Source: Ureibacillus acetophenoni (GTDB taxonomy: Bacteria; Bacillota; Bacilli; Bacillales_A; Planococcaceae). From it: a stretch of 64,000 nt of DNA. The position numbers and the translations under genes were made by a program. Under the pieces are notes generated by a model, which worked only from the letters and a program-made list of their open reading frames with translations, did not search any database and was not told where the DNA came from. Of the stretch, positions 17,805-53,411 are shown one piece after another. The first letter of the stretch is position 1. Each line of letters opens with the position of its first letter. The DNA lies in the NCBI RefSeq assembly GCF_900220965.1, contig NZ_OBQC01000007.1:62001-126000 (forward strand), read 5' to 3'.

Positions 17805-18358
17805 ATTATGGCTTTAAAAGACTTATAAAGGAAATTTTAAGAAGAATTCTTTTTCAAATTGTCCTTGAAAGGCTTTATATAAGACATTTAAAGGGGATAT
17901 TTTATTCATTTGTCCTTTAGAAGCCAGATAAAAGACGTTTCTGATAGATTAGATTATTGTTTTGTCTTTTAGAGGTGTTATAAAAGACATTTCACTTGGA
18001 TTTCTTAATTCATTTGTCCTTTAGAAGCCAGATAAAAGACGTTTCTGATAGATTAGATTATTGTTTTGTCTTTTAGAGGTGTTATAAAAGACATTTCCCT
18101 TGGATTTCTTAATTCATTTGTCCTTTAGAAGCCAGATAAAAGACGTTTCTGATAGATTAGATGATCGTTTTGTCCTTTAGAGGTGTTATAAAAGACATTT
18201 CCCTTGGATTTCTTAATTCATTTGTCCTTTAGAAGCCAGATAAAAGACATTTCTGATAGATTAGATTATCGTTTTGTCCTTTAGAGGTGTTATAAAGGAC
18301 ATTTCACTTGGATTTCTTAATTCATTTGTCCTTTAGAAGCCAGATAAAAGACGTTTCA
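17805..18358. repeat. Tandem array A: 52-bp palindromic units, 104-bp higher-order period
   Basis: Eleven units begin with TGTC (or a decayed form) at 17809, 17860, 17911, 17963, 18015, 18067, 18119, 18171, 18223, 18275 and 18327, that is every 51-52 bp. Each has an inverted repeat of about 25 bp, for example GTCTTTTA-9-TAAAAGAC, then about 25 bp of spacer. Two unit versions alternate strictly (TTTAGAAGCCAG and TTTAGAGGTGTT), giving a 104-bp period. The first two units are decayed. The rest of the gap 17717-18588 shows nothing else. Confidence 0.92.
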
Positions 18359-18588
18359 CGAAAAATTCCTGTCTCAACAGTTCCTTTATTGCTATATATT
18401 AGAGCCATATTTTAATAAAAATTGATGCAGGAAATAGATATTGTTAGATATTAGATCGTCAATGTATACCTTCTACCAAGGACAACACTATTGCCAGCTT
18501 TAATTATTCATTTTTTCTAACTTTTACTAAAAAACAATTTAATAGAATGATAAAATATTAGTATTAACTGACAAAGGTGGTATGGTGG

Positions 18589-20571
18589 ATGAAAAGAAAG
18601 TTAGGCGCAGAAGATTTATTTAAAATCAATTCAGTTTCAAATCCTCAAATTTCTCCAAACGGGGAAGAGGCTGTATTTATTCGAACAGAAATAGACGAGA
18701 AAGATAATAAATATTACGCTCATTTATTTCATATACAATTAGCGACTGGTACCATATCACAATGGACTTACGGAAAAGAAAGAATTTCTTCTCCGAACTG
18801 GTCTCCAGATGGACAATCAGTGGCATTTCTTTCAAATCGTGACGAAAAAAATCAATTATACATCATCAATAAAAATGGTGGGGAAGCAAAAAAAGTTACG
18901 ACTTTGGATTCCGGAGTTAATTCATTTTTATGGGATCCATCAAACGGAAAAATTTGGATCTCAAGTAAAATTAAGAGTGGTAAAACTTTCACAGATAAAG
19001 TTGAAAAAGAAGACAAGCCATTGCCAAAAGCATATGTAGTTGATGGAATGAAATACAAAATGGATGGCATTGATGGGGCAGGGTTAGTTCCACAAGACTC
19101 TTATTCTCAAATTGCTGTACTAAACTTAAACGATGAATCAATTGACCAATTTACAACGGGTGAATACCAGCATTCATTACAAGCTATCTCACCGGATGGC
19201 AAAAAGTTAGTTGTTGGGGTAAATCGTGCTGACAATTTAGATTATGTTTTCAAATCTCCGTTACTATTAATAGACGTAGAAACAAAAGAAGAGACTACGA
19301 TTGTCGACCAAAATGGATATTATGGTGGAGCGGCATTTTCGTTTGATGGCAAATACATAGCGTATGCTGGAAGCGACCATAGCTATAAAAATGCGACTCA
19401 TGGGAATATTTACATTTATGATGTTGAAGGGAAAACGACAGTTTCATTAACTGATGGTATTGATAGTCCTGTTGGGGATTATGCAGTAGCTGATACGCAA
19501 CAAGGAATTTCTTCTCCAGCTGTCGTTTGGACTGCAGCAAATGAATTATACTTCCAGCTTTCTACAATGGGTGATGTTCGTTTGTATTATGCGACTTTAG
19601 ATGGTGCGATCTATCCTGCTTCACCAGAAGGGGAACATATTTATGATTATGCCGTTACTAAAGATGGGAAGTTTGCACTGATTGCAGTTTCTAATCCTAC
19701 GTTCCCTGGTGAATTATTCAATTATGAAATTGCTGCTGGTGAAAGAAAGCAACTAACTCATTTTAATGAAGAGTTCTTAAAAGAAGTTGAGCTTGTTCAA
19801 CCATCAGATATTTCTTATGAAGTTTCAGACGGTAACACTGTCTATGGTTGGTTAATGAAGCCAGCTGGGTTCGAAGAAGGGAAGAAATATCCTTTAATCG
19901 TTGAAATACATGGTGGCCCGCATACGATGTATGCAAATTCATTCTTCCATGAGTTACAATTACTAGCTGCAAAAGGCTATGGGGTACTTTATGTAAATCC
20001 ACGTGGTAGCCATGGTTATAGTCAAGCCTTTGTTGATGCAGTGCGCGGTGATTATGGTGGTGGCGATTATACAGATATTATGGCTGGATTAGATTATGCA
20101 ATTAGCCAGAATGATTGGATTGATACGGAACGCTTAGGTGTTACTGGTGGTAGTTATGGTGGATTTATGACGAACTGGATTGTTGGTCATACAAATCGCT
20201 TTAAAGCTGCTGTGACACAACGTAGTATTTCAAACTGGATTAGTTTCTTCGGTGTTTCAGATATTGGCTATTACTTTACTGACTGGCAAATTGGAGCTGA
20301 CATGCAAGACCCTGAAAAACTTTGGAACCATTCGCCATTAAAATATGCAAAAAACATTGAAACACCGCTATTAATTTTACACAGTGAGAAAGACTTCCGC
20401 TGTCCTATTGAACAAGCTGAACAACTTTATATCACTTTAAAATCAATGAATAAACAAGTAGAGTTTGTTCGTTTCCCTGATAATAATCATAATTTATCAC
20501 GAACTGGTACACCAAACTTACGAATTGAACGTTTAAATCAAATTGTTCAATGGTTTGAGAAATATATTTAA
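18589..20571 (+). CDS. S9 family peptidase (acylaminoacyl/prolyl oligopeptidase type)
   Basis: Serine peptidase of 660 residues, similar in layout to B. subtilis YuxL. N-terminal seven-bladed beta-propeller (about 1-390), with repeated SPDG/SFDG-type blade motifs, and a C-terminal alpha/beta hydrolase. Catalytic triad: Ser522 in GGSYGG, Asp602 in HSEKDF and His634 in NNHNLS. The ATG at 18589 is chosen because AAAGGTGG lies 8 bases upstream; the in-frame GTG at 18577 has no such site. Likely cytoplasmic, cutting short peptides or acyl-peptides. Confidence 0.9.
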   Translation: MKRKLGAEDLFKINSVSNPQISPNGEEAVFIRTEIDEKDNKYYAHLFHIQLATGTISQWTYGKERISSPNWSPDGQSVAFLSNRDEKNQLYIINKNGGEAKKVTTLDSGVNSFLWDPSNGKIWISSKIKSGKTFTDKVEKEDKPLPKAYVVDGMKYKMDGIDGAGLVPQDSYSQIAVLNLNDESIDQFTTGEYQHSLQAISPDGKKLVVGVNRADNLDYVFKSPLLLIDVETKEETTIVDQNGYYGGAAFSFDGKYIAYAGSDHSYKNATHGNIYIYDVEGKTTVSLTDGIDSPVGDYAVADTQQGISSPAVVWTAANELYFQLSTMGDVRLYYATLDGAIYPASPEGEHIYDYAVTKDGKFALIAVSNPTFPGELFNYEIAAGERKQLTHFNEEFLKEVELVQPSDISYEVSDGNTVYGWLMKPAGFEEGKKYPLIVEIHGGPHTMYANSFFHELQLLAAKGYGVLYVNPRGSHGYSQAFVDAVRGDYGGGDYTDIMAGLDYAISQNDWIDTERLGVTGGSYGGFMTNWIVGHTNRFKAAVTQRSISNWISFFGVSDIGYYFTDWQIGADMQDPEKLWNHSPLKYAKNIETPLLILHSEKDFRCPIEQAEQLYITLKSMNKQVEFVRFPDNNHNLSRTGTPNLRIERLNQIVQWFEKYI

Positions 20572-20646
20572 TTTATTGAGCAATCGACAAGTCGAAATTG
20601 ATTGCAATAAATTAATAGAGAAAATTTACTGAAAGAGAGTTTAGTT

Positions 20647-21285
20647 ATGTCATTAATTCAAGGGTTGATTGACTTTATTCTACATATTGACGAACATCTT
20701 GTTGAGATTATTCAACAATTTGGAGGATGGGCCTATGGTATTATATTCTCGATCGTCTTTGTAGAGACAGGGGTCGTCATTATGCCGTTTCTGCCTGGGG
20801 ATTCACTTCTTTTCGCAAGTGGTACGCTTGCAGCATTAGGTGCCTTTAGTTTACCTGTTTTACTTGTTGGGTTTATAGCTGCAGCTATTCTTGGAGACAC
20901 TGTCAATTACCATATTGGACAAAAGGTTGGCTTAGCGATTAAACCAAATACATTAATTGGTCGCTTTATCAATGAAGAAAAAATGATTGCTGCACAACGC
21001 TTCTTTAATAAACACGGTGGAAAGACGATTGTCATCGCTAGATTCATGCCCTTTATTCGAACGTTTATCCCGTTTGTGGCGGGTGCTAGTCGGATGAATT
21101 ATAAATATTTCCTTATTTATAATGTAATCGGTGCAGTAATATGGGTAATGATTTGTACTTTAGCCGGCTATTTCTTTGGTAATATTCCGATTATTAAAGA
21201 GAATTTCTCTGTTGTTATATTATTAATTATCTTCATCTCCGTTATACCAGCAATATTCAGTGCGTTAAAGGTACGAAAAGGTTAA
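20647..21285 (+). CDS. DedA family membrane protein
   Basis: 212 residues with about five membrane segments. The DedA signatures are clear: FVETGVVIMPFLPGDSLLFASGTLA near 38-62, and the amphipathic RFMPFIRTFIPFVAGASRMNY near 135-155. DedA proteins are undecaprenyl-phosphate or phospholipid flippases or scramblases needed for envelope homeostasis. GAAAGAGAG precedes the ATG. It has its own terminator and so is monocistronic. Confidence 0.9.
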   Translation: MSLIQGLIDFILHIDEHLVEIIQQFGGWAYGIIFSIVFVETGVVIMPFLPGDSLLFASGTLAALGAFSLPVLLVGFIAAAILGDTVNYHIGQKVGLAIKPNTLIGRFINEEKMIAAQRFFNKHGGKTIVIARFMPFIRTFIPFVAGASRMNYKYFLIYNVIGAVIWVMICTLAGYFFGNIPIIKENFSVVILLIIFISVIPAIFSALKVRKG

Positions 21286-21319
21286 CTTAATCAGCAATAA
21301 ATTGCTATTGGGCAATTAA

Positions 21320-21357
21320 AACGGCACTTCGCTAACTTTAGTGAGGTGCTGTTTTTT
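21320..21357 (+). terminator. dedA terminator
   Basis: ACGGCACTTCGCTAA pairs imperfectly with TTAGTGAGGTGCTGT, followed by a T run. Between here and 21697 I see only a weak minus-strand ORF (21363-21560) without similarity or a good ribosome site, and otherwise nothing. Confidence 0.8.
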
Positions 21358-21697
21358 GGGGTTTATTCGCCTTTAACTTGGCCTTTCGTTTTTTTCGTAA
21401 TGGATTGCAACGATACTTTGTTTAAATTTGTATTTAATTGTGTATAAATATTATTGTTGAGAAAACAATTTTTTATGAATAAATAGTTCATTTTCAACGA
21501 AAAATAAAGTAACTCACTACGGATGTATTCCTTACTTATCCCTTTAATTCCTTTGTTCATTTATCTTTATGAAAACTTTGTCTAAGTTTTGTCAGAATTA
21601 GTAAAGATTTATGAAATGGGAGAAAACGGTTACATTAAGGAAAAAATCTACCTTATAATGGTTTAGTAGGAAAAAAATATAATTGGAGGGAAATCTA

Positions 21698-22135
21698 ATG
21701 AAAAAAGCATTGCTTGCCTTAATATTTGGTTCAGCGATTTTCTTAGCTGCATGTGGGGGCGGAGATGAAGCAACAACTGACAATAATGCAACTGATAACC
21801 AGGGTGCAACAGAAAATACTGAAGGCGACAACAACGGTGATGCAGGTACAACTGATGAAACAACAACAAATGACGAAGCTGCAACAGATACTGAAACTGC
21901 AAACGAAGGTGCTGTAGCTCATGGTCAAGAAGTTGTTCAAAAAGCTTGTATTTCCTGCCATGGTCAAAACTTAGAAGGTATGGGTAATTTCCCAGCGTTA
22001 AATAATGTTGGATCTCGTTTATCACAAGATGAAATTCTTAATGTTATATTAAATGGACAAGGCGGAATGCCAGCAGGAATTGTTAAAGGTGAAGAAGCTG
22101 AAGCAGCTGCTGCATACTTAGCAACACTTAAATAA
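21698..22135 (+). CDS. Membrane-anchored lipoprotein cytochrome c (c551 type)
   Basis: 145-residue lipoprotein. Signal peptide with lipobox LAAC (Cys19), a linker at about 20-70 made almost only of Asp, Asn, Glu, Thr, Ala and Gly, then a small class I cytochrome domain. The heme motif CISCH is at 84-88 and the Met ligand lies in QGGMPAG near 122. It resembles CccB of B. subtilis, an electron carrier on the outer membrane face. GGAGGG precedes the ATG; an in-frame TTG 15 bases earlier overlaps that site and is rejected. Confidence 0.9.
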   Translation: MKKALLALIFGSAIFLAACGGGDEATTDNNATDNQGATENTEGDNNGDAGTTDETTTNDEAATDTETANEGAVAHGQEVVQKACISCHGQNLEGMGNFPALNNVGSRLSQDEILNVILNGQGGMPAGIVKGEEAEAAAAYLATLK

Positions 22136-22147
22136 TTAAGACTAAAC

Positions 22148-22188
22148 AGGACTATTTAGAAATTCGATTTTCTAAATAGTCCTTTTAT
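22148..22188 (+). terminator. Terminator of the cytochrome c gene
   Basis: Fifteen-bp perfect stem AGGACTATTTAGAAA / TTTCTAAATAGTCCT, 6-base loop, then TTTT. Confidence 0.92.
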
Positions 22189-22278
22189 TATGTCGAATCT
22201 AGTTTGAATTGATTTCATTTCTCACATAACATGCTAAAATAAAAACAGAATGCTAAATAAGGTAAAGGGTGTAAAATT

Positions 22279-23220
22279 ATGATATCAGTTACAACAAAAG
22301 ATGTTATAGAAAAATTTAACTTAACATTAGTAAGTGGTAATGAGGGTATAGGTCGTTATATTAGAACGAGTGATATTTCACGCCCTGGATTAGAGATGGC
22401 AGGTTATTTTACTCATTATCCAGCCAATCGTGTACAGTTAATTGGTAAAACGGAACATTCCTTTTTAGAGATGCTTCCTTCCAATATAAAAAAAGAACGT
22501 ATGCTACGATTATGCTCACATGAAACACCTGCAATTATTATCTCTCGTGGAAATGAAGCACCAGAAGAATTGATTCAAGCTTCAAATGAAAATAATGTAC
22601 CAGTTCTTTTAACAACGATGAAAACAACAAGATTTTCAAGTAGGTTAACGAATTACTTAGAAAGCAAACTTGCACCCTATGTAGCAATGCATGGAGTACT
22701 TGTAGATGTCTATGGAATCGGTGTTTTAATCATTGGAAAAAGTGGAGTAGGTAAAAGTGAAACTGCTCTAGAACTTATTAAAAAAGGGCATCGTTTAGTT
22801 GCAGATGATTGCGTTGAAATTCGTCAAGAAGCTGAAGATTTGTTGATGGGTACACCGCCACCATTGTTGGAGCATCTGTTAGAAATACGTGGAATTGGTA
22901 TTATTGATATTATGACCCTTTTCGGTGCAAGTGCGGTCAGATCACAAAAACGAATTACACTTATTGTTGAACTTGAAAACTGGGACCCAGAAAAGGTTTA
23001 TGACCGTCTAGGATTAGATGAAGAAAAGATGAAAATTATTGATACAGAAATTACTAAGTTAACAATTCCTGTACAACCTGGACGAAACGTTTCAGTTATT
23101 ATTGAAGTGGCCGCAATGAATTATCGTTTGAAAAGATTAGGCGTTAATGCGGCACAAGAATTTTCTCGTCGCTTAGAAGAAGTAATTTCAGTTCAGGATG
23201 AGTTAGAAGAGGATTATTGA
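22279..23220 (+). CDS. hprK: HPr kinase/phosphorylase
   Basis: Bifunctional sensor that phosphorylates and dephosphorylates Ser46 of HPr and Crh, controlling carbon catabolite repression through CcpA. 313 residues, normal. Walker A GKSGVGKS at 153-160 and the family motif [10 protein letters not shown] near 208 are present. It is the first gene of hprK-lgt-ppaX-acyltransferase, as in B. subtilis. Its substrate Crh is encoded about 15 kb downstream at 38602. Confidence 0.96.
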
Positions 23221-23299
23221 TTTCCTAATTACTAAGGACAGTCCAAAATACACCTAGATAATTTAATAGTTGAGCGCTTTAATTGAAAGGAGAAATAGG

Positions 23300-24127
23300 A
23301 TGGATTTTTTATTATTAGACATTAACCCGATTGCATTCCATATCGGAAGTATTCCAGTTCGTTGGTATGGAATTTTAATCGCACTGGGGATTGTTTTAGC
23401 TTACATAGTTGGTCAACATGAAGGAAATAAACGAGGGTTACCTAAGGATTTCTTTGCTGACCTACTCATTTGGGCAATTCCAATTTCCATTGTTTGTGCA
23501 CGTATTTACTACGTCGTTATGGAATGGGATTATTATGGCGCAAATCCCGATAAAATCATTCAAATCTGGAATGGTGGGATTGCAATTCATGGTGCGCTAA
23601 TTGGAGCAATCGCTACAGCATATGTATTTTGTCGTTTTAAAGGCATTAATTTCCTTAAAGTAGCGGACATTGCCATTCCAAGTGTGTTAATTGGACAAAT
23701 TGTAGGACGCTGGGGTAATTTTATGAACCAAGAAGCTTATGGCGGACCGGTTTCTGAAGAGTTTTTACGAAATTTAATGATTCCAGAATGGATTATTAAT
23801 CAAATGTATATAAATGATCCGGTCTATGGACTATCTTATTTCCATCCTACATTTTTATATGAATCATTATGGAATATTTTAGGGTTAATTCTTTTATTAA
23901 TTCTTAGAAAGGTAAATCTTCACCGTGGTGAAATCTTCTTTACTTATTTAATTTGGTATGGAATTGGAAGATTCTTTATTGAAGGAATGAGAACGGATAG
24001 TTTATATCTATTTGGTGAGTTACGAGCTGCACAAGTAGTTTCGATTTTAGGAATTATTATCGGAGTTGTTTTCATTATTTATCGTCGAGTAAAAGTACGC
24101 CCTGTCGTTAGATATAAAGATAAATAG
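23300..24127 (+). CDS. lgt: Prolipoprotein diacylglyceryl transferase
   Basis: Transfers diacylglycerol to the lipobox Cys of prolipoproteins in the membrane. 275 residues and about seven membrane helices. The Lgt signature [15 protein letters not shown] near 139 and the C-terminal [16 protein letters not shown] near 225 are intact. The ATG at 23300 has AAAGGAG 8 bases upstream; an upstream TTG in frame lacks one. Client lipoproteins in this window are encoded at 10514, 21698, 42126 and 56530. Confidence 0.95.
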
Positions 24128-24176
24128 ACAGAACAGCTTTGTATAAGTGTTCGGTTCAAGTGAAGGAGTAATAAAT

Positions 24177-24815
24177 ATGTTAAAAGCTTTATTATTCGAT
24201 TTTGATGGTACTTTATTAAATACAAATGACTTAATCATTCAATCTTTTATGCATGTCCTGGAGGAAAAGTTTCCTGGGCAATATAAACCTGAGGATTGTT
24301 TGCGCTTTATGGGCCCTTCATTAACTGAAACATTTGAAGAATTAACGCCGAATGAAGTAGAAGAGATGACATTGAAATATCGAAAGTGGAACATAGAACA
24401 CCACGATGAGCTAGTAAAAGAATTTGATGGCGTCATGGAAACTTTAGAAGAGCTTCGTGCTTTAGGGATTCGTTTAGCGATAGTTTCCACAAAAAGACGT
24501 GACATGATTGAGCGCGGATTAAATTTGATGGGGGCAAGTCACTTTTTTGAATTGATTGTCGGTATTGAAGATGTGAAAAATGTGAAGCCTGATCCAGAGC
24601 CTGTATTACTTGCGATTGAAAAGCTTGGTGTTGGCAAAGAAGATGTCATCATGATCGGTGACAATTCTCATGATATTGAATCTGGTAAAAATGCAGGTGT
24701 GAAAACAGCCGGTGTAGCTTGGTCGCTAAAAGGGGAAGAATTTTTAAATCAATTTAATCCGGATTATATGCTTCAACATATATCAGATATTTTGTCGATT
24801 GTTAAGGAGTCTTAA
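24177..24815 (+). CDS. ppaX: Pyrophosphatase PpaX
   Basis: HAD-superfamily hydrolase that removes the pyrophosphate made when HprK dephosphorylates Ser46 with inorganic phosphate. 212 residues from the ATG at 24177, with GAAGGAG upstream. HAD motif I FDFDGTLLNT at the N-terminus, motif II VSTKRR near 105, and motifs III/IV around KPDPEPVLLA and IGDNSHDI. Cotranscribed with hprK, its functional partner. Confidence 0.92.
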   Translation: MLKALLFDFDGTLLNTNDLIIQSFMHVLEEKFPGQYKPEDCLRFMGPSLTETFEELTPNEVEEMTLKYRKWNIEHHDELVKEFDGVMETLEELRALGIRLAIVSTKRRDMIERGLNLMGASHFFELIVGIEDVKNVKPDPEPVLLAIEKLGVGKEDVIMIGDNSHDIESGKNAGVKTAGVAWSLKGEEFLNQFNPDYMLQHISDILSIVKES

Positions 24816-24818
24816 GCG

Positions 24819-25352
24819 ATGAGAAGGACAGAACGATATAAGGTAGAAGGATCAAATTCTTTATGGCAAATTTATAAAACCGTATCTTTTTGGAAGGTTG
24901 TTAAATGCTTTATTTTTGGTCAAATCGGTCGTATAACTCCTTTTATGAGCTGGAAAAATTGGATTTATCGTACGTTTTTAGGAATGAAAATTGGGGACAA
25001 AACTTCCTTGGCGTTGATGGTGATGCCGGACACAATGTTTCCTGAGCGTATTTCAATTGGTGACAACACAATCATCGGTTTTAATACGACGATTTTAGCC
25101 CATGAATATTTAATAGATGAATATCGATTAGGTGATGTGAAAATAGGAAGTAACGTCATGATCGGAGCGAATTCTACAATATTACCTGGTGTTGAAATTG
25201 GTGACGGGGCTATTGTGTCAGCTGCCACATTAGTACATAAAGATGTACCTGCCGGATCGATGTGCGGTGGCAACCCCATGCAAATTATTTTCACCGCAGA
25301 GCAAATGGCAGAAAGAAAAAAGAGAGACGTGCCCCAGTGGCATAATGCGTAA
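24819..25352 (+). CDS. Left-handed beta-helix acyltransferase (YvoF-like)
   Basis: 177-residue hexapeptide-repeat acyltransferase. The C-terminal half (about 70-160) shows the repeats ISIGDNTIIG, VKIGSNVMIGANSTILPGVEIGDGAIV and a typical VPAGSMCGGNP end loop. The N-terminal ~50 residues are basic and aromatic. It sits where yvoF lies in B. subtilis, 3 bases after ppaX, with GGAG overlapping the ppaX end. Acceptor and acyl donor are unknown; the family uses acetyl-CoA most often. Confidence 0.82.
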   Translation: MRRTERYKVEGSNSLWQIYKTVSFWKVVKCFIFGQIGRITPFMSWKNWIYRTFLGMKIGDKTSLALMVMPDTMFPERISIGDNTIIGFNTTILAHEYLIDEYRLGDVKIGSNVMIGANSTILPGVEIGDGAIVSAATLVHKDVPAGSMCGGNPMQIIFTAEQMAERKKRDVPQWHNA

Positions 25353-25361
25353 GAACGATGA

Positions 25362-25394
25362 ACTCACTATTGATGATAATAGTGGGTTTTTTTC
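25362..25394 (+). terminator. Terminator of the hprK operon
   Basis: ACTCACTATT / AATAGTGGGT with one wobble pair, a 6-base loop and a T run (TTTTTTT). It separates the hprK operon from the his operon. Confidence 0.85.
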
Positions 25395-25433
25395 TTAAGT
25401 AGAGAAGGTGTTTGATTAACACTGGTGTTGCTG

Positions 25434-25930
25434 GTAGTGGAAAAGGTGAATTAATGGACAAATGAGGATGGGCAAAGGTGAGAATTGTCCATTATTGGTG
25501 AGTTAATGGACAAAACGGGTTGAAGAATTGGTTGAACTGTCTATTATAGATGAGTTAATGGACAGAAAAGGATGGAAAAAGGTGAGAATTGTCCATTATA
25601 AGTGAGTTAATGGACAAAACGAGATGGAAAAGTGGTTGAACTGTCCAATAGAATCGTTCTATGAGACAAAACAGGTTGAAAATTTGGATGAACTGTCCAA
25701 TATAGGTGTTCTATGGGACAAAACCGGTTGAAAATTTGGGTAAACTGTCCAATAGAAGCGTTCTACGGGACAAAACGAGTTGAGAACTTGGGTAAACTGT
25801 CCAGTAGAAGCGTTCTATGAGACAAAACCTGTTGAAAACTTAGGTAAACTGTCCAATAGAAGCGTTCTATGGGACAAAAACGGTTGAAAACTTGGGAGAA
25901 CCGTCCAATAGAAATATTCTATTCGACAAT
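25434..25930. repeat. Tandem array B: strict 52-bp palindromic units
   Basis: Nine units start at 25486, 25538, 25590, 25642, 25694, 25746, 25798, 25850 and 25902, exactly 52 bp apart, plus a leading half unit. Each has a 27-bp inverted repeat, TGTCCATTA-9-TAATGGACA in early copies and TGTCCAATAGA-5-TCTATGGGACA in later ones. AAAAC and a spacer with GGTTGAAAA...GG follow. Base changes in one arm are often matched in the other. No coding sense. Confidence 0.93.
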
Positions 25931-26091
25931 ACATGACGGGAATGATAATAAAAGGTAACATAGAAACCCTCTCAGTGACCGAATGAATAATAACTAGAAC
26001 TAGAACGAATAGGTAGCATAGAATCCCCTTCAGTGACCATTTGCATCAAAGACTGCATTATCAGGTAGGTGAAAAGCCATATACACATCAA

Positions 26092-26155
26092 ATCCCAAGA
26101 CTACCAACAATCCCAAGACTACCAATAATCCCAAGACTACCAACAATCCCAAGAC
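26092..26155. repeat. 18-bp direct tandem repeat
   Basis: ATCCCAAGACTACCAACA repeated about 3.6 times with one base change (AATA for AACA). Just upstream, a 58-bp-spaced imperfect pair (CATAGAA...CAGTGACC at about 25958 and 26018) forms another short repeat. The remaining gap up to hisZ holds no gene and no T-box features that I can find. Confidence 0.85.
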
Positions 26156-38601: not shown

Positions 38602-38859
38602 ATGGTTGAAACCAATTTAGAAGTGAAGTTGAAATCGGGTTTACAAGCTAGACAAGCCGCTTTATTTGTCCAAGAGGCAAACCGTTATAAGGCCGAAGTG
38701 TATTTACAAAAAGACCATAAAAAAGTAAATGCAAAGTCCATTATGGGGATCATGAGCCTTGCTATCGCAAGAGGTACAACAGTAACTTTAATTGCAGATG
38801 GCAACGACGAAAACGAAGCAATCGCTGGTCTTTCTAAATTCATTGAAAAAGAAGATTAA
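38602..38859 (+). CDS. crh: HPr-like catabolite repression protein Crh
   Basis: 85 residues. HPr fold, but position 15 is Gln (GLQARQAA) instead of the phosphorylatable His, so it cannot act in PTS phosphotransfer. Ser46 in AKSIMGIMSL is retained for HprK. That is the definition of Crh, which as P-Ser-Crh binds CcpA and, unphosphorylated, methylglyoxal synthase in B. subtilis. GAAAGAGGGAG precedes the ATG. It ends the nudix-to-crh operon. Confidence 0.95.
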   Translation: MVETNLEVKLKSGLQARQAALFVQEANRYKAEVYLQKDHKKVNAKSIMGIMSLAIARGTTVTLIADGNDENEAIAGLSKFIEKED

Positions 38860-38956: not shown

Positions 38957-39590
38957 GGTGTCCCGGCTGGCTTCTCAAGGGCGGAAAAGGTGTGTTTTTC
39001 GGTAAAGTGTCTTCGAGAGTGCATCTCGAGGAAAAAAAAGAAGAGAATTTCAGAAAAAAGTCTTCAAGGTATCTAGTTTCTGACAAAAAACGAAGAAACA
39101 GTGGAAAAGTGTCTAGAAAAGCATAGTATTTGACAAAAAAATTATTCATTCATAAAATCTTGTCTAGAAAACTCCAGTTATTAGACAAAAAAGGTCTACT
39201 TCATAGAATATTGTCTTGAAAAACCAAAGTTACGAGACAAAAAATCACGGATCAATAGGAAAGTGTCTCGTAAAACCGAGTTATGAGACAAAAAATTGTG
39301 AATCAACATGAAAGTGTCTCGTAAAACCGAGTTACGAGACAAAAAATTGTGAATCAACATGAAAGTGTCTCGTAAAACCGAGTTACGAGACAAAAAATTG
39401 TGAATCAACATGAAAGTGTCTCGTAAAACCGAGTTACGAGACAAAAAATTGTGAATCAACATGAAAGTGTCTCGTAAAACCGAGTTACGAGACAAAAAAT
39501 TGTGAATCAACATGAAAGTGTCTCGTAAAACCAAGTTACGAGACAAAAAATCAAGTTTCTCCAGAAAACTGTCTCAATCAATATTCAACC
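38957..39590. repeat. Tandem array C: 51-bp palindromic units
   Basis: Units begin with TGTC at 38959, 39008, 39059, 39110, 39161, 39212, 39264, 39315, 39366, 39417, 39468, 39519 and 39570. Spacing is 51 bp almost throughout (49 and 52 at three edges). Core copies carry a perfect palindrome TGTCTCGTAA-7-TTACGAGACA, then AAAAAA and a spacer. Copies from 39264 on are nearly identical; earlier ones are progressively decayed. Because 51 is divisible by 3, a spurious repeated ORF exists on the minus strand. The rest of the gap to 39750 is empty. Confidence 0.93.
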
Positions 39591-39750: not shown

Positions 39751-40377
39751 TTGAATACAAATCTTGTTTATACATTAAGTAAACCAACAAATACAGACAA
39801 AGCAAAGCACCCTGCAATCTTTCTAATGCACGGTATGGGAAGTAACGAAAGTGATTTACCGAGTATCGTTCAAGAATTAAGAAATGACTATTATATCTTT
39901 AGTTTAAGAGGACCGCTTTCTCAGCCGCCTGGCTACTCATTTTTCACAATTGAACGTATTGGACTTCCGCACGAGGAACCATTTAAACATATTTTAAATG
40001 AAATCCAACAATTTATAGAAGAAGCGAAAAGTCAGTATGATATTGATGAGAATGGAATTTATTTAATGGGCTTTAGCCAAGGTGGGATATTAAGCCAATC
40101 TCTCGCAAGTATCATGGGGAACAAGTTAGCTGGAATAGTATCGTTAAGTGGGTACCTACCAGAAATCGTAGATACGATGGAGAAATCACCAATGGACGGA
40201 TTGCGAGTGTTCCTTGCTCATGGAGAACAAGATCAGATCATTCCTTTTACTTGGAGTGAGAAGAGTAAACAATACTTCGAGGGAAATCACGCAGAAGTGT
40301 CTTATCACCCTTACACAGGCGGACACTTCCTAACACAAGAAGTCGTAAACAAAATTCTAACCTATTTTAAAGGCTAA
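39751..40377 (+). CDS. Alpha/beta hydrolase, carboxylesterase/phospholipase type
   Basis: 208-residue hydrolase of the esterase/phospholipase Abhydrolase_2 group. LMHGMGSNESDLPSI near 26 is the oxyanion loop, the nucleophile Ser lies in GFSQGGILS near 108, Asp in HGEQDQIIP near 160 and His in GGHFLT near 191. Start TTG at 39751, with GAGGTG about 8-10 bases before. Cytoplasmic, substrate unknown. It sits between crh and clpP and is convergent with clpP across a shared terminator. Confidence 0.85.
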   Translation: MNTNLVYTLSKPTNTDKAKHPAIFLMHGMGSNESDLPSIVQELRNDYYIFSLRGPLSQPPGYSFFTIERIGLPHEEPFKHILNEIQQFIEEAKSQYDIDENGIYLMGFSQGGILSQSLASIMGNKLAGIVSLSGYLPEIVDTMEKSPMDGLRVFLAHGEQDQIIPFTWSEKSKQYFEGNHAEVSYHPYTGGHFLTQEVVNKILTYFKG

Positions 40378-41315: not shown

Positions 41316-41390
41316 GCCCTCGTGGTGTAATGGATAACACGTAAGATTCCGGTTCTTGCACTGGGGGTTCGATTCCCTCCGAGGGCGCCA
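41316..41390 (+). tRNA. tRNA-Arg (anticodon CCG)
   Basis: 75-nt cloverleaf. Acceptor GCCCTCG / CGAGGGC, D stem GTGT/ACAC, anticodon stem TAAGA/TCTTG with loop TTCCGGT (anticodon CCG, reading CGG), T arm GGGGG-TTCGATT-CCCTC, discriminator G and an encoded CCA. The stop of clpP transcription is on the other side, so this tRNA must have its own promoter. Confidence 0.93.
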
Positions 41391-44364: not shown

Positions 44365-44373
44365 GTAGTTTAG

Positions 44374-44411
44374 AATCCATTCAGTGCGCAGGCATTGAAT
44401 GGATTTTTTTA
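44374..44411 (+). terminator. Terminator of the amino acid importer operon
   Basis: AATCCATTCA / TGAATGGATT, a perfect 10-bp stem with a 12-base loop, followed by seven T. Confidence 0.9.
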
Positions 44412-44429: not shown

Positions 44430-44830
44430 GCGAGGCGGATTTCGCCAAAATGAATGAAATATTCGTCAAAATGCAGGAGTTATTCGCCAAAATACAAAGG
44501 ATATTCGCTAGAATGCCAAACCCGTGCTTCTACGCTGCAGATAATCGCCAAAATGAATAAAGTATTAGCCAAATTGAGAGAGTTATTCGCCAAAATACAA
44601 AGGGTATACGCCAGAATGCCAATCTTTAGCTTTTATGCTTTAGAAAATCGCCAAAATGAATAAAGTATTAGCCAAAGTGCCAGAGTTATTCGCCAAAATA
44701 CAAAGGATATTCGCTAGAAAGCCGAACTCGTGCTTCTACGCTGCAGATAATCGCCAAAATGCATAAAGTATTAGCCAAATTGAGAGAGTTATTCGCCAAA
44801 ATACAAAGGATATTCGCCAGAAGGCCAAAC
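44430..44830. repeat. Tandem array D: 103-bp units of 21-bp sub-repeats
   Basis: About 3.9 units with anchor points at about 44440, 44543, 44646 and 44749, all 103 bp apart. Each unit holds four 21-bp sub-repeats of the form TATT(C/A)GCCAAAATRNAAAG plus a ~19-bp tail (CCCGTGCTTCTACGCTGCAG in two copies). The sub-repeat length makes one plus-strand frame read as coiled-coil-like heptads, but the 103-bp period breaks any long frame. It abuts the stop codon of the YetF-like gene. Confidence 0.92.
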
Positions 44831-44838
44831 GCCCCATT

Positions 44839-45537: not shown

Positions 45538-45590
45538 CAATTACACCTCTATTCGTATTTTGTGTTGTCATGAATAATTAATACAAAACA

Positions 45591-45630
45591 AAAAAATCAC
45601 CTTTCACAGAGTGTGAAAAGTGATTTTTTA
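45591..45630 (-). terminator. Terminator of the coat protein gene
   Basis: AAAAAATCACCTTTCACA / TGTGAAAAGTGATTTTTT, 18 positions with one mismatch and a GAG loop; symmetric A/T flanks. It lies just past the stop at 45643 on the minus strand. Confidence 0.88.
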
Positions 45631-45642
45631 TTTAATCCAATG

Positions 45643-46269: not shown

Positions 46270-46390
46270 ATTGTTCCTCCTTAAGTGTTTAAAGGTCGTA
46301 CGAAATTAGTGTGTGTAGGTTGTTTTTGATTATTCATCTTTTCTGATACAATAATTGGTAAAGTAGTTGGTTGTTATTGGAGGTTAATTG

Positions 46391-46621
46391 ATGATTGTTA
46401 AATTTTATAGTCGACCTGATTGTCCGCTTTGCGAAGAAGGTTTAATTACCTTGAAATTAGTCCAAGAAGATATCCCATTTACAATTGAACATATTAATAT
46501 TGAGGAGTTTGATGACATTCACGAAAAATATATGCTCATGATTCCTGTAGTGGAAAAGGATGACAAAGTAATCCAATATGGGCAACTAGATTATGCGACA
46601 TTGTTGGAACACCTAAGTTAA
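46391..46621 (+). CDS. Glutaredoxin/thioredoxin-fold protein
   Basis: 76-residue thioredoxin-fold protein of the glutaredoxin-like (DUF836) type. Redox pair CPLC near residues 10-13 and the cis-Pro in MIPVVEK near 50. GGAGG precedes the ATG at 46391 by 8 bases; an overlapping TTG is rejected. It lies 93 bases upstream of gap in the same direction, where the cggR repressor gene would be expected in the Bacillus glycolytic operon. Partner unknown. Confidence 0.83.
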   Translation: MIVKFYSRPDCPLCEEGLITLKLVQEDIPFTIEHINIEEFDDIHEKYMLMIPVVEKDDKVIQYGQLDYATLLEHLS

Positions 46622-46678
46622 TCATCAAATCCAATGAGGGAGGTTAATATTTCTCTCAAAGGGTAAAAATAATAAAGG

Positions 46679-46697
46679 TACAATTATAAAAATTGTA
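46679..46697. promoter_or_regulatory. Inverted repeat before gap
   Basis: TACAATTATAAAAATTGTA, 7-bp perfect arms with a 5-base centre, ending 3 bases before the GGAGG of gap. It could be an operator or an mRNA hairpin masking translation. No CggR-type operator (CGGGAC/TGTC repeats) is present in the 93-base gap. Confidence 0.4.
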
Positions 46698-46714
46698 ATA
46701 TTGGAGGAAAAATT

Positions 46715-47725
46715 ATGCCCTTAAAAATTGCGATTAATGGTTTTGGACGAATTGGTAGATTAGTGTTTCGAGAAGCGATGAAAAGTGAACAATTAGAAGT
46801 GGTTGCTGTAAATGATTTAACGGATGCTCATCAATTAGCTCATTTAATGAAATACGACTCTATCCATGGAATATATGATGCGAAGGTTGAATCTGAAGAT
46901 GATGCATTTATTGTAAACGGCAAAAGAGTGCGTGTTTTATCTGAAAAAGACCCTTCAAAACTTCCTTGGGGTGAACTAGATGTTGATGTTGTTATCGAAG
47001 CAACTGGTAGATTCCGTTCCATGGAAGAAGTATCTCAACACGTGCAAGCGGGTGCGAAAAAAGCAATTCTTTCTGCACCATCAAAAGGTGAAATGCCTAC
47101 TTATGTAATGGGAGTTAACCATACAAACTATAAAAATACAGAAGATGTGATTTCGAATGCTTCATGTACGACAAACTGTTTAGCTCCAGTAGCAAAAATA
47201 CTTGATGAAAAGTTCGGTATTAAACGTGGATTAATGACAACAGTCCATTCTTATACAAATGACCAACGAATTTTAGATTTCCCACATAGCGATCCAAGAA
47301 GAGCTCGAGCTGGTGCGGTTTCTATGATTCCAACTTCCACTGGTGCAGCGATTGCTGTAGCGAAAGTGCTGCCGCAGTTAAAAGGTAAATTAGATGGATT
47401 TGCGATTCGTGTTCCAACACCAAACGTGTCATGTGTTGACTTTGTAGCTGAATTAAACACTAAGGTTACTGTTGAACAAGTAAATGATGCACTAAAAGAG
47501 GCTGCAAACGGAGAATTGCAAGGAATCTTAGGCTACAACGAACTACCGCTCGTATCAATTGACTATAACGGAAATTCAAATTCCTCTACAGTTGATGGTC
47601 TTTCTACTATGGTATTAGAAGATAATATGATTAAAGTTTTATCTTGGTATGATAATGAAATCGGCTATTCAAGTCGTTTGATTGATCTAGCTCTTTATAT
47701 AGCTGAACAAGGCTTAAACAAATAA
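46715..47725 (+). CDS. gap: Glyceraldehyde-3-phosphate dehydrogenase
   Basis: 336 residues. NAD-binding NGFGRIGRLVFREA, with Asp near 33 in AVNDLTD favouring NAD; catalytic Cys151 in SNASCTTNC; and catalytic His in TTVHSYTNDQ near 178. It heads the pgk-tpiA-gpmI-eno series, so it should be the glycolytic GapA-type enzyme rather than gluconeogenic GapB, though sequence alone is not fully decisive. GGAGG precedes the ATG. No terminator follows; a structured 250-base gap leads to pgk. Confidence 0.95.
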   Translation: MPLKIAINGFGRIGRLVFREAMKSEQLEVVAVNDLTDAHQLAHLMKYDSIHGIYDAKVESEDDAFIVNGKRVRVLSEKDPSKLPWGELDVDVVIEATGRFRSMEEVSQHVQAGAKKAILSAPSKGEMPTYVMGVNHTNYKNTEDVISNASCTTNCLAPVAKILDEKFGIKRGLMTTVHSYTNDQRILDFPHSDPRRARAGAVSMIPTSTGAAIAVAKVLPQLKGKLDGFAIRVPTPNVSCVDFVAELNTKVTVEQVNDALKEAANGELQGILGYNELPLVSIDYNGNSNSSTVDGLSTMVLEDNMIKVLSWYDNEIGYSSRLIDLALYIAEQGLNK

Positions 47726-47825
47726 ATGTGCTATACTATTTGATTTGGTTCGAAAAAGTGTAACATAATTATCCTTAGTTTCTATATTAAGTATAGCCTT
47801 AAAAATGATTTCCATTTATAATGAT

Positions 47826-47891
47826 GATGGGTAATAAGAGCGGTGGCGTGTCGGTGGCTCTCTTGGCCGCTGAGAAGGACCCATCGCTCTT
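47826..47891 (+). ncRNA. Candidate structured RNA with alternative folds between gap and pgk
   Basis: A locally G/C-rich block in an AT-rich gap. One fold pairs GATGGGT (47826-47832) with ACCCATC (47879-47885) and, inside it, AGCGG (47839-47843) with CCGCT (47867-47871). A second, exclusive fold pairs AAGAGCG (47836-47842) with CGCTCTT (47885-47891), followed by a weak T run. Such a switch is typical of attenuators. A possible promoter (TTGATT, 18 bases, CATAAT) precedes it. No known riboswitch class recognised. Confidence 0.4.
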
Positions 47892-47977
47892 TCTTAATTT
47901 TAAAAATGTATATAAAAAAGATGAAAATGGTTGTGAAATGATGATCAACCTTATGTAATTCAAGGAGGATTTTCTTC

Positions 47978-49162
47978 ATGTTTTCAAAGAAGACGATGAA
48001 TGATATTGATGTAAAAGGAAAACGTGTCTTTGTTCGCGTTGATTTTAATGTACCGATGGAAGATGGAAAAATTACAGACGAAACGAGAATTCGTGCTGCG
48101 CTTTCAACAATTGAACAATTGACTAATAATGGTGCAAAGGTTATTTTAGCTTCTCATTTAGGAAGACCAAAAGGTGAAGTAAACGAGGAAATGCGCCTTA
48201 CAGCAGTTGGAGTACGTTTAGCCGAACTTTTAGGAACAGCTGTTACAAAATTAGATCAATCAATTGGTAGTCAAGTTGAAGAAATGATTGCGAACATGCA
48301 AGACGGAGAGATTGTTCTTCTTGAAAATGTGCGTTTCCATAAAGGTGAAGAAAAAAATGATGAGGAACTTGCAAAACAATTTGCGAGTTTAGCTGATATA
48401 TATGTAAATGATGCATTTGGTGCTGCTCACCGTGCTCATGCTTCTACTGAAGGAATTGCAAAACATATTCCTGCGGTTTCTGGTTTATTAATGGAAAAAG
48501 AATTGGACGTTCTTGGTAAAGCATTATCGAATCCAGAAAGACCTTTTACTGCCATCATTGGTGGATCAAAAGTAAAAGACAAAATTGGTGTAATTGAAAA
48601 TCTACTTGATAAAGTAGACCATTTATTAATCGGTGGAGGACTTTCTTACACATTTAGTAAAGCTCAAGGGTATTCAGTTGGTAAGTCATTATTAGAAGAA
48701 GATAAAATCGAGCTTGCAAAAGGTTTTATTGAAAAAGCAAAAGAAAAAGGTGTCGAGCTTCATTTACCAGTGGATGCTGTTGTGGCAAATGAATTCTCTA
48801 AAGATGCTGAAACAAAAGTTGTGGATATTAATGAAATTCCAGAAGACTGGATGGGACTTGATATCGGGCCTAAAACTGCAAGTAAGTACGCTGAAATTAT
48901 TAAAAACTCTAAGTTAATTATTTGGAATGGCCCAATGGGTGTATTCGAAATGGAACCATTCGCAAATGGAACGAAATCTGTTGCAGATGCAATGGCAGAA
49001 ACTGCTGGTTACACGATTATTGGTGGTGGTGATTCAGCTGCAGCTGTTGAAAAATTTAATGTTGCTGAAAAAATGGACCACATCTCTACAGGTGGCGGAG
49101 CTAGCCTAGAACTTTTAGAAGGTAAAGCACTACCTGGCATCGTTGCTTTAAATGACAAATAA
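47978..49162 (+). CDS. pgk: Phosphoglycerate kinase
   Basis: 394 residues, normal for bacterial [25 protein letters not shown] near 20 (substrate binding), SHLGRPKG near 59, the N-domain signature [13 protein letters not shown] near 148, and the nucleotide-binding [18 protein letters not shown] and [12 protein letters not shown] near 310 and 350. AAGGAGG precedes the ATG. Produces ATP and 3-phosphoglycerate in glycolysis. tpiA follows 12 bases later. Confidence 0.97.
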
Positions 49163-49174
49163 GGAGGTAGGCCT

Positions 49175-49933
49175 ATGCGTAAACCAATCATTGCAGGAAA
49201 CTGGAAGATGTATAAAACATTTGATGAAGCAACTCAGTTTTTAGAAGCTGTACGAGATCAAATTCCTACTGAAGATAAGGTAGATGCTGTTATTTGTGCA
49301 CCAGCTTTATATTTGCCAACATTGGTAGGTATCGCTGCTGATTTTGATTTAGCGATTGGTGCTCAAAATATGCACTATGAAAATGAAGGTGCATTTACAG
49401 GTGAAATCAGTCCAGCTCAACTTTCTTCCATAAATGTTGATTATGTTATTCTTGGTCATTCAGAACGCCGTGAATACTTTAATGAGACGGATGAAACGGT
49501 GAATAAAAAGGTGGCTGCTGCCCTAACAGCTGGCATTGTTCCTATTATTTGTTGTGGTGAAACATTAGAAGAACGAGAATCAGGTAAGACGGAACAAAAA
49601 GTGAGCGGCCAAATAAAAGCAGCATTGAACGGCTTTACTGCTGAACAAGTGGAACATATGGTCATTGCTTACGAACCGATTTGGGCAATTGGCACAGGTA
49701 AAACTGCAACAGCAGATGATGCCAATCAGGTGTGCGGTGCCATTAGAAATGTTGTTGAACAATTATTTAACAAAGACTGTGCCGAAAAAGTTCGTATTCA
49801 ATATGGAGGCAGTGTGAAGCCGGAAAATATTGAAGAGTTATTATCAAAAGAACATATTGATGGCGCTCTAGTAGGTGGGGCTAGTCTACAAGTGGATTCA
49901 TTCCTTGCTTTAGTGAATAAGGCAATTAGTTAA
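49175..49933 (+). CDS. tpiA: Triosephosphate isomerase
   Basis: 252-residue TIM barrel. AGNWKMYKT with catalytic Lys at the N-terminus, catalytic His in ILGHSERRE near 95, catalytic Glu in [15 protein letters not shown] near 167, and the phosphate loop YGGSVKPEN near 210. AAGGAGG precedes the ATG. Interconverts DHAP and GAP for the gap reaction encoded in the same series. Confidence 0.97.
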
Positions 49934-50013
49934 GTTTTTCTAAATAGCAGGAGCTCAAAATTAATTTTTAACTTAAAGACGTAGTTTATTTCACAAATTG
50001 GAGGCGAGAGCAT

Positions 50014-51552
50014 TTGCCTAAACAACCCGTAGCATTAATTATACTCGATGGCTTTGCTTTCCGTGACGAAGTGTATGGAAATGCAGTAGCACAAGCAAAG
50101 AAACCGAACTTTGATCGATATTGGAACCAATTTCCTCACTCAACGTTAACAGCAAGTGGTGAGGCAGTGGGGTTACCTGATGGTCAAATGGGTAATTCTG
50201 AAGTGGGACACTTAAATATTGGTGCAGGAAGAATCGTGTACCAAAGTCTTACTCGAATTCATAAATCCATTCGTGAAGGTGACTTCTTTGAAAATGAAAA
50301 GTTATTACAAGCGATTGAGCATGTAAAGTCTAATAATTCAAAGCTCCATCTGATGGGCTTACTATCAGATGGCGGTGTACATAGTCATTACGAACATCTT
50401 TTTGCAATGTTAAAACTTGCAAAACAAAAAGGCATCGATGAAGTCTATGTACATGGTTTTTTAGATGGACGTGATGTTGGTCCAACAACAGCACTTGGTT
50501 ATATAGAAGAAACTGAAAAACAGATGAATGAAATCGGTGTAGGTAAATTTGCAACAATCCACGGTCGTTATTATGCAATGGATCGGGATAAGCGTTGGGA
50601 AAGGGTTCAATTATCCTATAATGCCCTCGTAGATGGAATTGGTCAAACGGCCCCTAGTGCAAAAATCGGGGTTGAAAACTCTTATGGAAGAGAAGTTCAT
50701 GATGAATTTGTTATTCCATTTGTGATCACACAAGAGGGCAAACCTGTAGCAACAATTGATACGAATGATGCGGTTGTATTCTTCAATTTCCGTCCAGATC
50801 GTGCAATTCAGTTGTCGACGGCTTTCACAAACGATCAATTTATTGGTTTTAAATTATCTGAGAAACATCCTAAAAATCTTTCATTTGTTTCATTTACACA
50901 TTATAGTGCAGAGGTTAATGCACAAGTCGTGTTTGAAAATATTGATTTAGTAAATACTGTCGGTGAAGTTATTGCTAGAAGTGGAAAAACTCAACTTCGT
51001 ATTGCAGAAACTGAAAAATATCCGCACGTTACTTTCTTTATGAGTGGAGGAAGTGAGCAAACCTTCCCAGGCGAGGAGCGAATATTAATTCCTTCACCTA
51101 AAGTTCCTACATATGATTTGAAGCCTGAAATGAGTGCATACGAAGTAACAGAAGCACTGTTACAAGCAATTGAAGAAGATAAATTCGATGCGATCATATT
51201 GAACTTTGCAAATCCGGATATGGTTGGTCATAGTGGAATGCTTGAGCCAACGATTAAAGCGATTGAAACAGTCGATGAATGTTTAGGAAAAATTGTGGAT
51301 GCCATTATAGAAAAAGGTGGCGCTGCAATTATTACAGCAGATCACGGAAATTCTGATGAAGTAGTTACAATTAAGGGTGAACCGATGACTGCCCATACGA
51401 CAAATCCAGTTCCTGTCATTGTGACTAAATCGGATGTTGTCGTTCGTGATGGTGGAATTTTAGCTGACCTTGCACCTACAATGTTAAAATTGTTAGGACT
51501 AAAGCAACCAGAAGAAATGACAGGTAAACCGCTTATCGAAGAGGTTAAGTAG
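50014..51552 (+). CDS. gpmI: 2,3-bisphosphoglycerate-independent phosphoglycerate mutase
   Basis: 512-residue Mn-dependent mutase of the alkaline-phosphatase superfamily. Metal site [12 protein letters not shown] at the N-terminus (a normally GxG-containing loop is FAF here), phosphoacceptor Ser in [15 protein letters not shown] near 61, and later metal ligands in [12 protein letters not shown] and ADHGNSDE. Start TTG at 50014 with GGAGGCGAG upstream. In Bacillus it is strongly pH- and Mn-dependent and is shut down in maturing spores. Confidence 0.95.
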
Positions 51553-51624
51553 TAATTTAGGTTTTTGGGCTTCATGCCATTAAAAATAAATGCAATTTTG
51601 CTAAAGACTAAATTGATTCATTAA

Positions 51625-52935
<1,311 letters not shown>

Positions 52936-52944
52936 ATATTTATG

Positions 52945-52973
52945 GACCTCTTTCTTAGGAAAGGGGTTTTTTT
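52945..52973 (+). terminator. Glycolytic operon terminator
   Basis: ACCTCTTTC / GAAAGGGGT with one wobble pair and a short TTAG loop, then seven T. Confidence 0.9.
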
Positions 52974-53030
52974 GCGGATGAGAACTATACAAATTAATAA
53001 GTAACCTAGATTTTTGATGTCTGCGAAAAA

Positions 53031-53411
53031 GATATTAGAAGAAATTGATGAGATATTAGACAAAATGCCTGAGTTATTAGCCAAAATTGAGGCATTATTA
53101 GACAATAACTATAAAGTCAAAGTCTTCGTTAAAGATATTAGAAGAAATCGATGAGATATTAGACAAAATGCATGAGTTATTAGCCAAAATCAAGGCATTA
53201 TTAGACAATAACTATAAAGTCAAAGTCTTCGTTAAAGATATTAGAAGAAATTGATGAGATATTAGACAAAATGCACTAGTTATTAGCCAAAATCAAGGCA
53301 TTATTAGACAATAACTATAAAGTCAGAGCCTTCGTTGAAAATATTAGAAGAAATCGATGAGATATTAGACAAAATGCACTAGTTATTAGCCAAAATCGAG
53401 GCATTATTAGA
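53031..53411. repeat. Tandem array E: 103-bp units of 21-bp sub-repeats, cut by the IS
   Basis: Units begin at about 53031, 53134, 53237 and 53340, each 103 bp apart. Sub-repeats of 21 bp carry ATTAGACAAAATG, ATTAGCCAAAATC and ATTAGACAATAAC. The fourth unit is incomplete; the IS256-type element sits 9 bases beyond the last array-like bases. One frame from an ATG at 53017 reads 45 codons of Leu/Ile/Glu/Lys heptads but has no ribosome site, so I do not call it a gene. Confidence 0.92.

Follow-up and report, generated by a model that had tools for sequence, protein, structure and literature searches.

A TGTC-N19-GACA dyad frame in the 52-nt non-coding satellites of Ureibacillus acetophenoni, with covarying arms and addresses shared with Ureibacillus manganicus

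What can five intergenic tandem arrays have in common when their lengths and layout are alike and their letters differ? The question is raised by arrays A to E of a 64,000-nucleotide stretch of the Ureibacillus acetophenoni genome (NZ_OBQC01000007.1, positions 62,001 to 126,000 of the forward strand; hereafter the window), which is part of contig 19 of a 3.98-Mb genome in 39 contigs. A first-pass annotation, made from the sequence alone, read all five as a single format covered by no described feature class. We find two classes instead, both published for Bacillus (PMC8161180): A, B and C belong with the 52-nt non-coding satellites of Bacilli, and D and E, which show no hairpin signal, are 20-21-nt satellites. 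The claim of an undescribed class is therefore wrong, since A-C fit the former and D-E the latter class of that article. New here are a fixed TGTC-N19-GACA frame, arms that covary, arms that are constrained, and chromosomal addresses shared with Ureibacillus manganicus. All five arrays are real and were recovered by Tandem Repeats Finder (TRF) where they had been placed and with the unit lengths given, although the start proposed for the first, 17805, lies about 55 bp ahead of its first recognisable unit. The arrays and their palindromes are as follows.

17859-18357, minus strand: array A, 52 class, units of 52 and 104 bp (TRF); its A-tailed TGTC-N19-GACA units are read on the minus strand
18275-18301, no strand: perfect 27-bp TGTC-N19-GACA palindrome of array A (sequence, fold)
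25447-25965, plus strand: array B, 52 class, units of 52, 104 and 156 bp (TRF), between hexapeptide transferase and hisZ-like genes
25746-25772, no strand: 27-bp TGTC-N19-GACA palindrome of array B with an imperfect stem, followed by AAAA (sequence, fold)
39110-39553, plus strand: array C, 52 class, units of 51 bp (the first units 52), also 153 bp (TRF)
39315-39341, no strand: 27-bp TGTC-N19-GACA palindrome of array C with a 10-bp perfect stem (sequence, fold)
44441-44830, plus strand: array D, 21 class, higher-order unit of 103 and 206 bp, block spacing 21, 21, 21, 40 (TRF)
53028-53418, plus strand: array E, 21 class, higher-order unit of 103 bp, block spacing 21, 21, 21, 40, downstream of eno (TRF)

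The palindromes reported for A, B and C are present in the sequence, and their ends recur at one distance. Our survey of arrays in this genome drew on a sample of 1,029,735 bases (26% of the genome) with gene calls based on open reading frames (ORFs); motif counts cover the whole genome and exact matches only, and arrays shorter than 80 bp and duplicates were removed before counting. The sample holds 39 arrays on the two unit-length ladders (at least 80 bp, flanked by genes on both sides), 25 of the 52 class and 14 of the 21 class. A format that keeps length and layout and varies its letters thus recurs in the sampled genome, as it does in relatives. Of 101 arrays counted without regard to period, 93 were classed as non-coding. 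TGTC-N19-GACA stands in the consensus of 26 of 45 52-class arrays (22 from this genome and 4 from two congeners), against 0.045 expected in shuffled units, and when gaps of 5 to 44 between TGTC and GACA were scanned in these 45 arrays, N19 alone occurred. In this lineage a frame-bearing unit consists of a dyad of 27 bp, TGTC-NNNN-A-N-A-loop(5)-T-N-T-NNNN-GACA, flanked by A-rich sequence, and a freer spacer of about 24-25 bp, with a period of 51 or 52. One unit each from A, B and C and the U. manganicus array at site C have 14 columns in common (TGTC, A9, A11, T19 and GACAAAA), so that the description of the arrays as unrelated in sequence is right only in part.

The dyads also stand up against shuffled units. 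A palindrome score of at least 6 was reached by 23 of 26 consensus units from this genome, 12 of 16 from other Bacillales and 17 of 27 published units, compared with 18.5, 18.1 and 5.4% of the respective shuffles. A span of 27 or 29 bp from one of two centres was found in 17/23, 6/12 and 8/16 of the units tested, the published ones in this check coming from 23 of the 27 units of Table 1 of PMC8161180. When each consensus unit was shuffled, 15 of 27 arrays of this genome reached p<=0.05; none of 60 shuffles was as good as B or C, and A missed significance (p=0.55) because its consensus arms hold a mismatch. Cut in register, the A unit folds with z -2.61 on the plus and -4.64 on the minus strand, the B unit with z -2.97, and the C unit with z -4.24 (plus) and -2.86 (minus). 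The hairpin signal is absent from the units of D and E (fold z 0.18, -1.10, -0.13 and 0.99).

Between arrays, the two arms change together. Inner arm pairs are Watson-Crick in 119 of 156 cases, compared with 67.8 when arms are reassigned between arrays (the best of 2000 shuffles gave 91), and inner positions show up to four pair types among the 26 frame arrays. Mean inner pairing is 0.65 within an array and 0.39 for arms taken from different arrays (n=47), and the arms of array B covary within the array itself (p=0.003). The arms are constrained as well: in 25 arrays (used out of 27 with at least five exact units), heterozygosity is 0.130 and 0.120 in the arms and 0.229 in both loop and spacer; variability in the arms falls below that of the loop in 19 of the 25 (p=6e-4) and below that of the spacer in 20 (p=1.4e-4). 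Only units with exact TGTC and GACA entered this comparison, which makes these eight bases invariant by design. Variation in the flanks of the dyad (positions 28-31 and the final five bases) is as low as in the arms (0.116 and 0.128); arrays were oriented by an A-tail rule, which partly builds in the A-richness of the flanks and not their low variability.

The frame is found beyond this genome. Two exact TGTC-N19-GACA motifs at a period of 50-53, which we term the double motif, occur 460 times here and are present in 13 of 25 genomes of the genus, the richest after this one being G022 (403) and U. manganicus (G010; 273). None of the 236 other-genus genomes covered by the search of the order, which all belong to the family of this genome, carries the double motif, and 6 of 271 genomes from other families of the class do, up to 515 times (G350). 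A reversed control pattern gave 0 in every genome searched. Among the 27 published consensus units of PMC8161180 Table 1, five have the frame at N19 where 0.006 would be expected: two of B. coagulans and one each of B. litoralis, B. thermoamylovorans and B. alkalitelluris. At the other gaps between 5 and 44 these 27 units yield one unit at N17, and one of the five N19 units also at N5.

Are the places of the arrays inherited? The nearest comparison is U. manganicus, whose eno product, at 98% identity, ranks above those of a Ureibacillus metagenome-assembled genome (97%) and Lysinibacillus yapensis (96%), and which at each of the five orthologous places has an array of matching class. Across 56 comparable gaps of contig 19, 6 hold an array in both genomes, 1 only here, 3 only in U. 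manganicus and 46 in neither (p=1.7e-5); these gaps, set by comparison of orthologous genes, take in 7 of 11 own and 10 of 18 U. manganicus arrays, the rest (including E, followed by a transposase ORF) not being judged. This replaces a comparison by DNA anchors, in which arrays had appeared at two of six alignable sites and agreed in class at one; there, anchors had entered arrays and the C array had been missed. The class is kept at 5 of the 6 shared sites; where it is the 52 class, at four sites, the period stays at 51 or 52. Unit identities at these four are 0.47, 0.56, 0.71 (B) and 0.43, where the background is 0.49 +- 0.07. At site C both genomes have 51-bp units, with the stem TGTCTCGTAA/TTACGAGACA here and TGTCCTCGAGA/TCTCGAGGACA in U. 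manganicus. For the 52 class, this comparison of sequences suggests that the palindromic frame may keep an inherited chromosomal place with most of its letters replaced.

Across the congener loci (1500 bp past each ortholog, some stretches being shortened by contig ends), arrays on either ladder were found at A in 1/21 loci, B in 8/23, C in 2/24, D in 2/21 and E in 12/24; with so few at A, C and D, these addresses are shared mainly with the nearest relative. Of 80 Bacillales loci, 22 have an array past eno by TRF, and 20 of these arrays fall on the 20-21, 40-42, 51-52 or 102-104 ladders, and the class of array at this site differs within the genus. Two C-site orthologs (L245, L246) have repeats of 127 and 152 bp with CGAAAGCCTGCGACAG-type segments past a whiA-like gene, which belong to neither satellite class. 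Two arrays at other places of our genome, C15 16101 and C20 37775, have nearly the same stem as the C array of U. manganicus (L229), TGTCCTCGAGA..TCTCGAGGACA, and different spacers, as though the two parts were exchanged independently.

The first-pass annotation had proposed that 52 bp, about five helical turns, would set the palindromes on one side of the DNA. This idea has limited support. Among 89 non-coding arrays at least 40 bp long, best periods do show coherence at 10.28 bp (R=0.80), owed chiefly to the 51/52 and 102-104 groups. Periods off both ladders taken alone show no significant coherence (n=18, p=0.08), in a set that also contains unrelated repeats of 44, 45, 127, 133, 180 and 298 bp, and phasing of A-tracts at 10.3 in the 52 class does not exceed dinucleotide shuffles (z 0.20 +- 0.16 over 37 arrays, 1 with p<=0.05). 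A-tract phasing is slight in the 21 class (z 0.62 +- 0.18, 30 arrays, 5 with p<=0.05), whose block spacings are mostly 21 and 40, giving 61, 82, 103 and 124 beside 42 and 63; in D and E, 21+21+21+40 makes up the 103-bp unit.

With respect to genes, arrays sit towards 3' ends. In gaps between tandem genes, 18 of 22 arrays lie nearer the upstream 3' end (median 88 vs 184 bp, p=0.001), and convergent gaps are enriched for the 52 class (10/25 vs 92/606 gaps, p=0.003) and for both classes together (12/39, p=0.02). Two own arrays at contig ends that lack a gene on one side (C12:1 and C15:16101) were excluded from these counts. The arrays at or near contig ends that we observed are C12:1-529 and C15:16101-16200 of this genome and G007:C2:52; assemblies are thus probably broken by arrays, and counts may be low. 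Because arrays are related to one another, shuffle p-values overstate certainty.

The immediate surroundings in the window comprise the following genes, all of ordinary kinds, and predicted hairpins.

16175-17716: AMP-binding enzyme gene, neighbour of array A
18577-20571: S9 peptidase gene, neighbour of array A
25360-25389, plus strand: intrinsic-terminator-like hairpin between the upstream gene and array B (hairpin prediction)
38602-38859: HPr-family (crh-type) gene, neighbour of array C
39751-40377: alpha/beta hydrolase gene, neighbour of array C
44372-44407, plus strand: intrinsic-terminator-like hairpin between the ABC-ATPase gene and array D (hairpin prediction), D being flanked by this gene and a convergent YetF-family gene

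The array B region has 3 terminator-like sites (0.7 expected in shuffles) and the array D region 1 (0.6 expected). The same prediction reported none before A and E, and in the array C region its sole hits are the array's own hairpins on the minus strand. Rfam at gathering scores gave no family in any array, the only match in the window being a tRNA at 41316-41387. Between array B and the hisZ-like gene lies an 18-bp tandem repeat, AATCCCAAGACTACCAAC (26091-26155, 3.6 copies, 95% matches), of neither satellite class. A Mutator-type (PF00872) transposase ORF (53470-54690, plus strand) begins 52 bp past array E; since half of the congener loci examined carry arrays at the E site, it may have inserted beside a pre-existing array. 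Elsewhere in the genome, GTACC-GGTAC-type segments occur in tandem repeats of 15-45 bp outside called genes (C11:47140, C11:53089, C11:90791, C12:99089 and C9:37549). These short repeats look like another dispersed palindromic element, to which C11:47140 (period 42, counted among the 21-class rows) probably belongs.

How far, then, were such arrays known? Subirana and Messeguer reportedly described 52-nt non-coding tandem repeats of Bacillus and other Firmicutes in J Bacteriol in 2020. In arrays A to C the unit measures 51-53 nt, is present in at least 4 copies (by TRF, A 8.7 at 52, B 6.2 at 52 and C 6.6 at 51) and belongs to one of several families per genome that have the same size and a different sequence. 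All three are intergenic and non-coding, with the caveat for C that 51 is divisible by 3 and that a mechanical ORF on the minus strand takes up 88% of the array; a stricter coding test did not call C coding. This is how the 52-nt satellites of Subirana and Messeguer appear in PMC8161180, as non-coding repeats of 51-53 nt with constant size and differing letters. D and E, in turn, are non-coding 20-21-nt repeats with a common short signal: the G(C/A)CAAAAT blocks of 21 bp first noted are seen in the sequence, and their 21-bp TRF rows match at 66-81%. They resemble the published 20-21-nt repeats in having 21-bp blocks, a common short signal and an intergenic position. Higher-order units (102-103, also 82, 92-93 and 113 bp) are frequent in our 21 class, with spacings of 21 and 40, whereas the Figure 2 legend of PMC8161180 names 40-41-nt relatives of the 20-21-nt repeats and pools lengths above 60.

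PMC8161180 sets out two classes of Bacillus non-coding repeats, 52 nt and 20-21 nt, constant in size and variable in sequence; short signals and their reverse often lie within one unit, and AARGACA is among the B. coagulans signals of its Table 2. It terms the 52-nt sequences species-specific and unconserved, with positions conserved only in part between strains, and it proposes nucleoid proteins or small RNA as their role while leaving the function open. A fixed TGTC-N19-GACA frame, a test of arm covariation and a 3'-end bias are not found in the portions of its text and tables consulted, the words "intergenic" and "Lysinibacillus" do not occur there, nor does "52 nt" in those of PMC6749651, and no earlier description of the TGTC-N19-GACA frame appeared among the matches listed by our literature searches. 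Clustered regularly interspaced short palindromic repeats (CRISPR) are likewise regular repeats with partial palindromes. A CRISPR array was rejected as an identification, as the spacers here repeat like the rest of the unit instead of being unique, and there are dozens of arrays.

What might the 52-class arrays do? We tentatively favour the view, a good possibility though short of a probable one, that each is a set of multivalent, helically phased, structure-constrained dyads near gene 3' ends, a DNA platform of the kind formed by repetitive extragenic palindromic (REP) sequences and bacterial interspersed mosaic elements (BIME). Lying on the 3' side of transcription units, such a platform would, by its five-turn spacing, present the dyads on one face of the double helix and so allow cooperative binding by a putative factor. 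This factor would read the TGTC/GACA ends and the stem-like dyad, as has been proposed for gyrase on the REP elements of E. coli, and could help to manage the supercoils that transcription generates or to organise the nucleoid. With tandem copies and a relaxed inner sequence, recombination would be able to homogenise and rewrite the arrays with function kept. That the 51/52-bp period is kept at shared sites points to the double helix as the thing read, and the TGTC/GACA feet with covarying arms argue for contact with a dyad or stem-like form over plain sequence recognition. Together with the REP-like 3' position, these features lead us to favour a multivalent DNA platform over neutral turnover and over an RNA hairpin.

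Several results weigh against such a platform. The frame is absent from the consensus of 19 of the 45 52-class arrays, and in two distant lineages (G493 and G388) the arrays pair poorly, at 2/7 inner pairs. Compensatory changes between arms, which the first-pass annotation suggested seeking, appear between arrays but reach p<=0.01 among the units of one array in only 4 of the 18 arrays kept (those with an inverted-repeat score below 6 or fewer than 4 units were dropped); pairs 9-19, 11-17 and 12-16 are not significant singly, and pairing is restored by 13 of 26 double changes. Arrays show no avoidance of divergent gaps (5/39 vs 106/606, p=0.66), and most congeners lack arrays at A, C and D. 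Finally, neutral correction of quasi-palindromes would likewise yield arm covariation. Indeed, the arrays might be functionless satellites made by slippage and unequal recombination in tolerated spaces, their arms kept alike by template-switch correction, a known route of mutation at quasi-palindromes (PMC3820800). Three of the four shared-address 52-class pairs being no more alike than background, the congeners without arrays and the non-coding verdict on most arrays of any period all fit this account. We nevertheless consider it somewhat unlikely: it does not readily explain the recurrence of TGTC and GACA at N19 across families, flanks as conserved as the arms, the dominance of two unit-length ladders, or the occupation of divergent gaps.

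Subirana and Messeguer proposed that the arrays act as RNA: transcripts arising by read-through or in antisense would form hairpins in series, with a role as small RNAs, sponges or stabilisers of 3' ends. This appears to us distinctly unlikely. RNA-seq reads from 52-nt repeats indicate their transcription in B. coagulans (PMC8625621), and the A, B and C units fold better than shuffles. On the A-tailed strand G-U pairs outnumber A-C mismatches (192 vs 55 by unit, over all 11 pairs; 0.098 and 0.027 at inner pairs, where random arms give 0.12 and 0.069), in 8 of 9 tandem arrays this strand coincides with that of the genes (p=0.04), and the gene strand of 52-class tandem arrays is purine-rich (0.578 vs 0.523, p=0.009; 21 class p=0.07), an excess that could come from leading-strand skew. 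Counted by array, however, the strand signal is weak (16 to 7; 11 to 8 in gene-strand sense; 19 to 20 in the first set), both strands fold, RNA has no need of an exact 51/52 period, D and E do not fold, and no array reaches the gathering score of an Rfam family. Intrinsic curvature, with phased A-tracts bending the DNA and the period holding the bends in plane, could draw on the A-rich flanks and the coherence at 10.28 bp, yet the lack of phasing above shuffles in the 52 class and its slightness in the 21 class make it very improbable. Gram-negative bacteria have REP/BIME elements, intergenic palindromes of 20-40 bp with a fixed tetranucleotide tag that favour unidirectional and convergent gaps; the roles proposed for them include relief of transcription supercoils by gyrase and functions as RNA (PMC3733652). 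Our arrays share short intergenic palindromes, an invariant tetranucleotide at the base of the stem, numerous copies and such gaps, which might suggest miniature elements spread by a REP-associated tyrosine transposase (RAYT, Y1/HUH) reading the hairpin. This origin is highly improbable: REP elements are mostly dispersed and bear GTAG or CGTC tags, with RAYT for the GTAG type, whereas the 52-class copies are tandem arrays of constant 51/52-bp period with a TGTC/GACA foot, without a GTAG or CGTC tag or an association with RAYT. One match to Y1_Tnp (PF01797) is present in this genome, and 7 of 13 motif-bearing congeners, including G022 and U. manganicus, have none, so RAYT is not needed.

A broader version of the platform is doubtful but worth stating. 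Many 52-nt satellites of distant Bacilli may be one system, a TGTC-N19-GACA dyad every five turns, whose putative conserved factor would need only ends, stem and geometry; with such a factor, each chromosome would inherit the positions of its arrays and their format, and the letters could turn over freely. If true, this would amount to a chromosome-organising or 3'-end-insulating code without sequence conservation. The cross-family signature of TGTC-N19-GACA at a 51/52 period, the covarying arms and the shared addresses make the function of these satellites testable, and they offer a defined probe for a putative reader, 13 congeners with and 12 without the double motif, and orthologous arrays with different letters.

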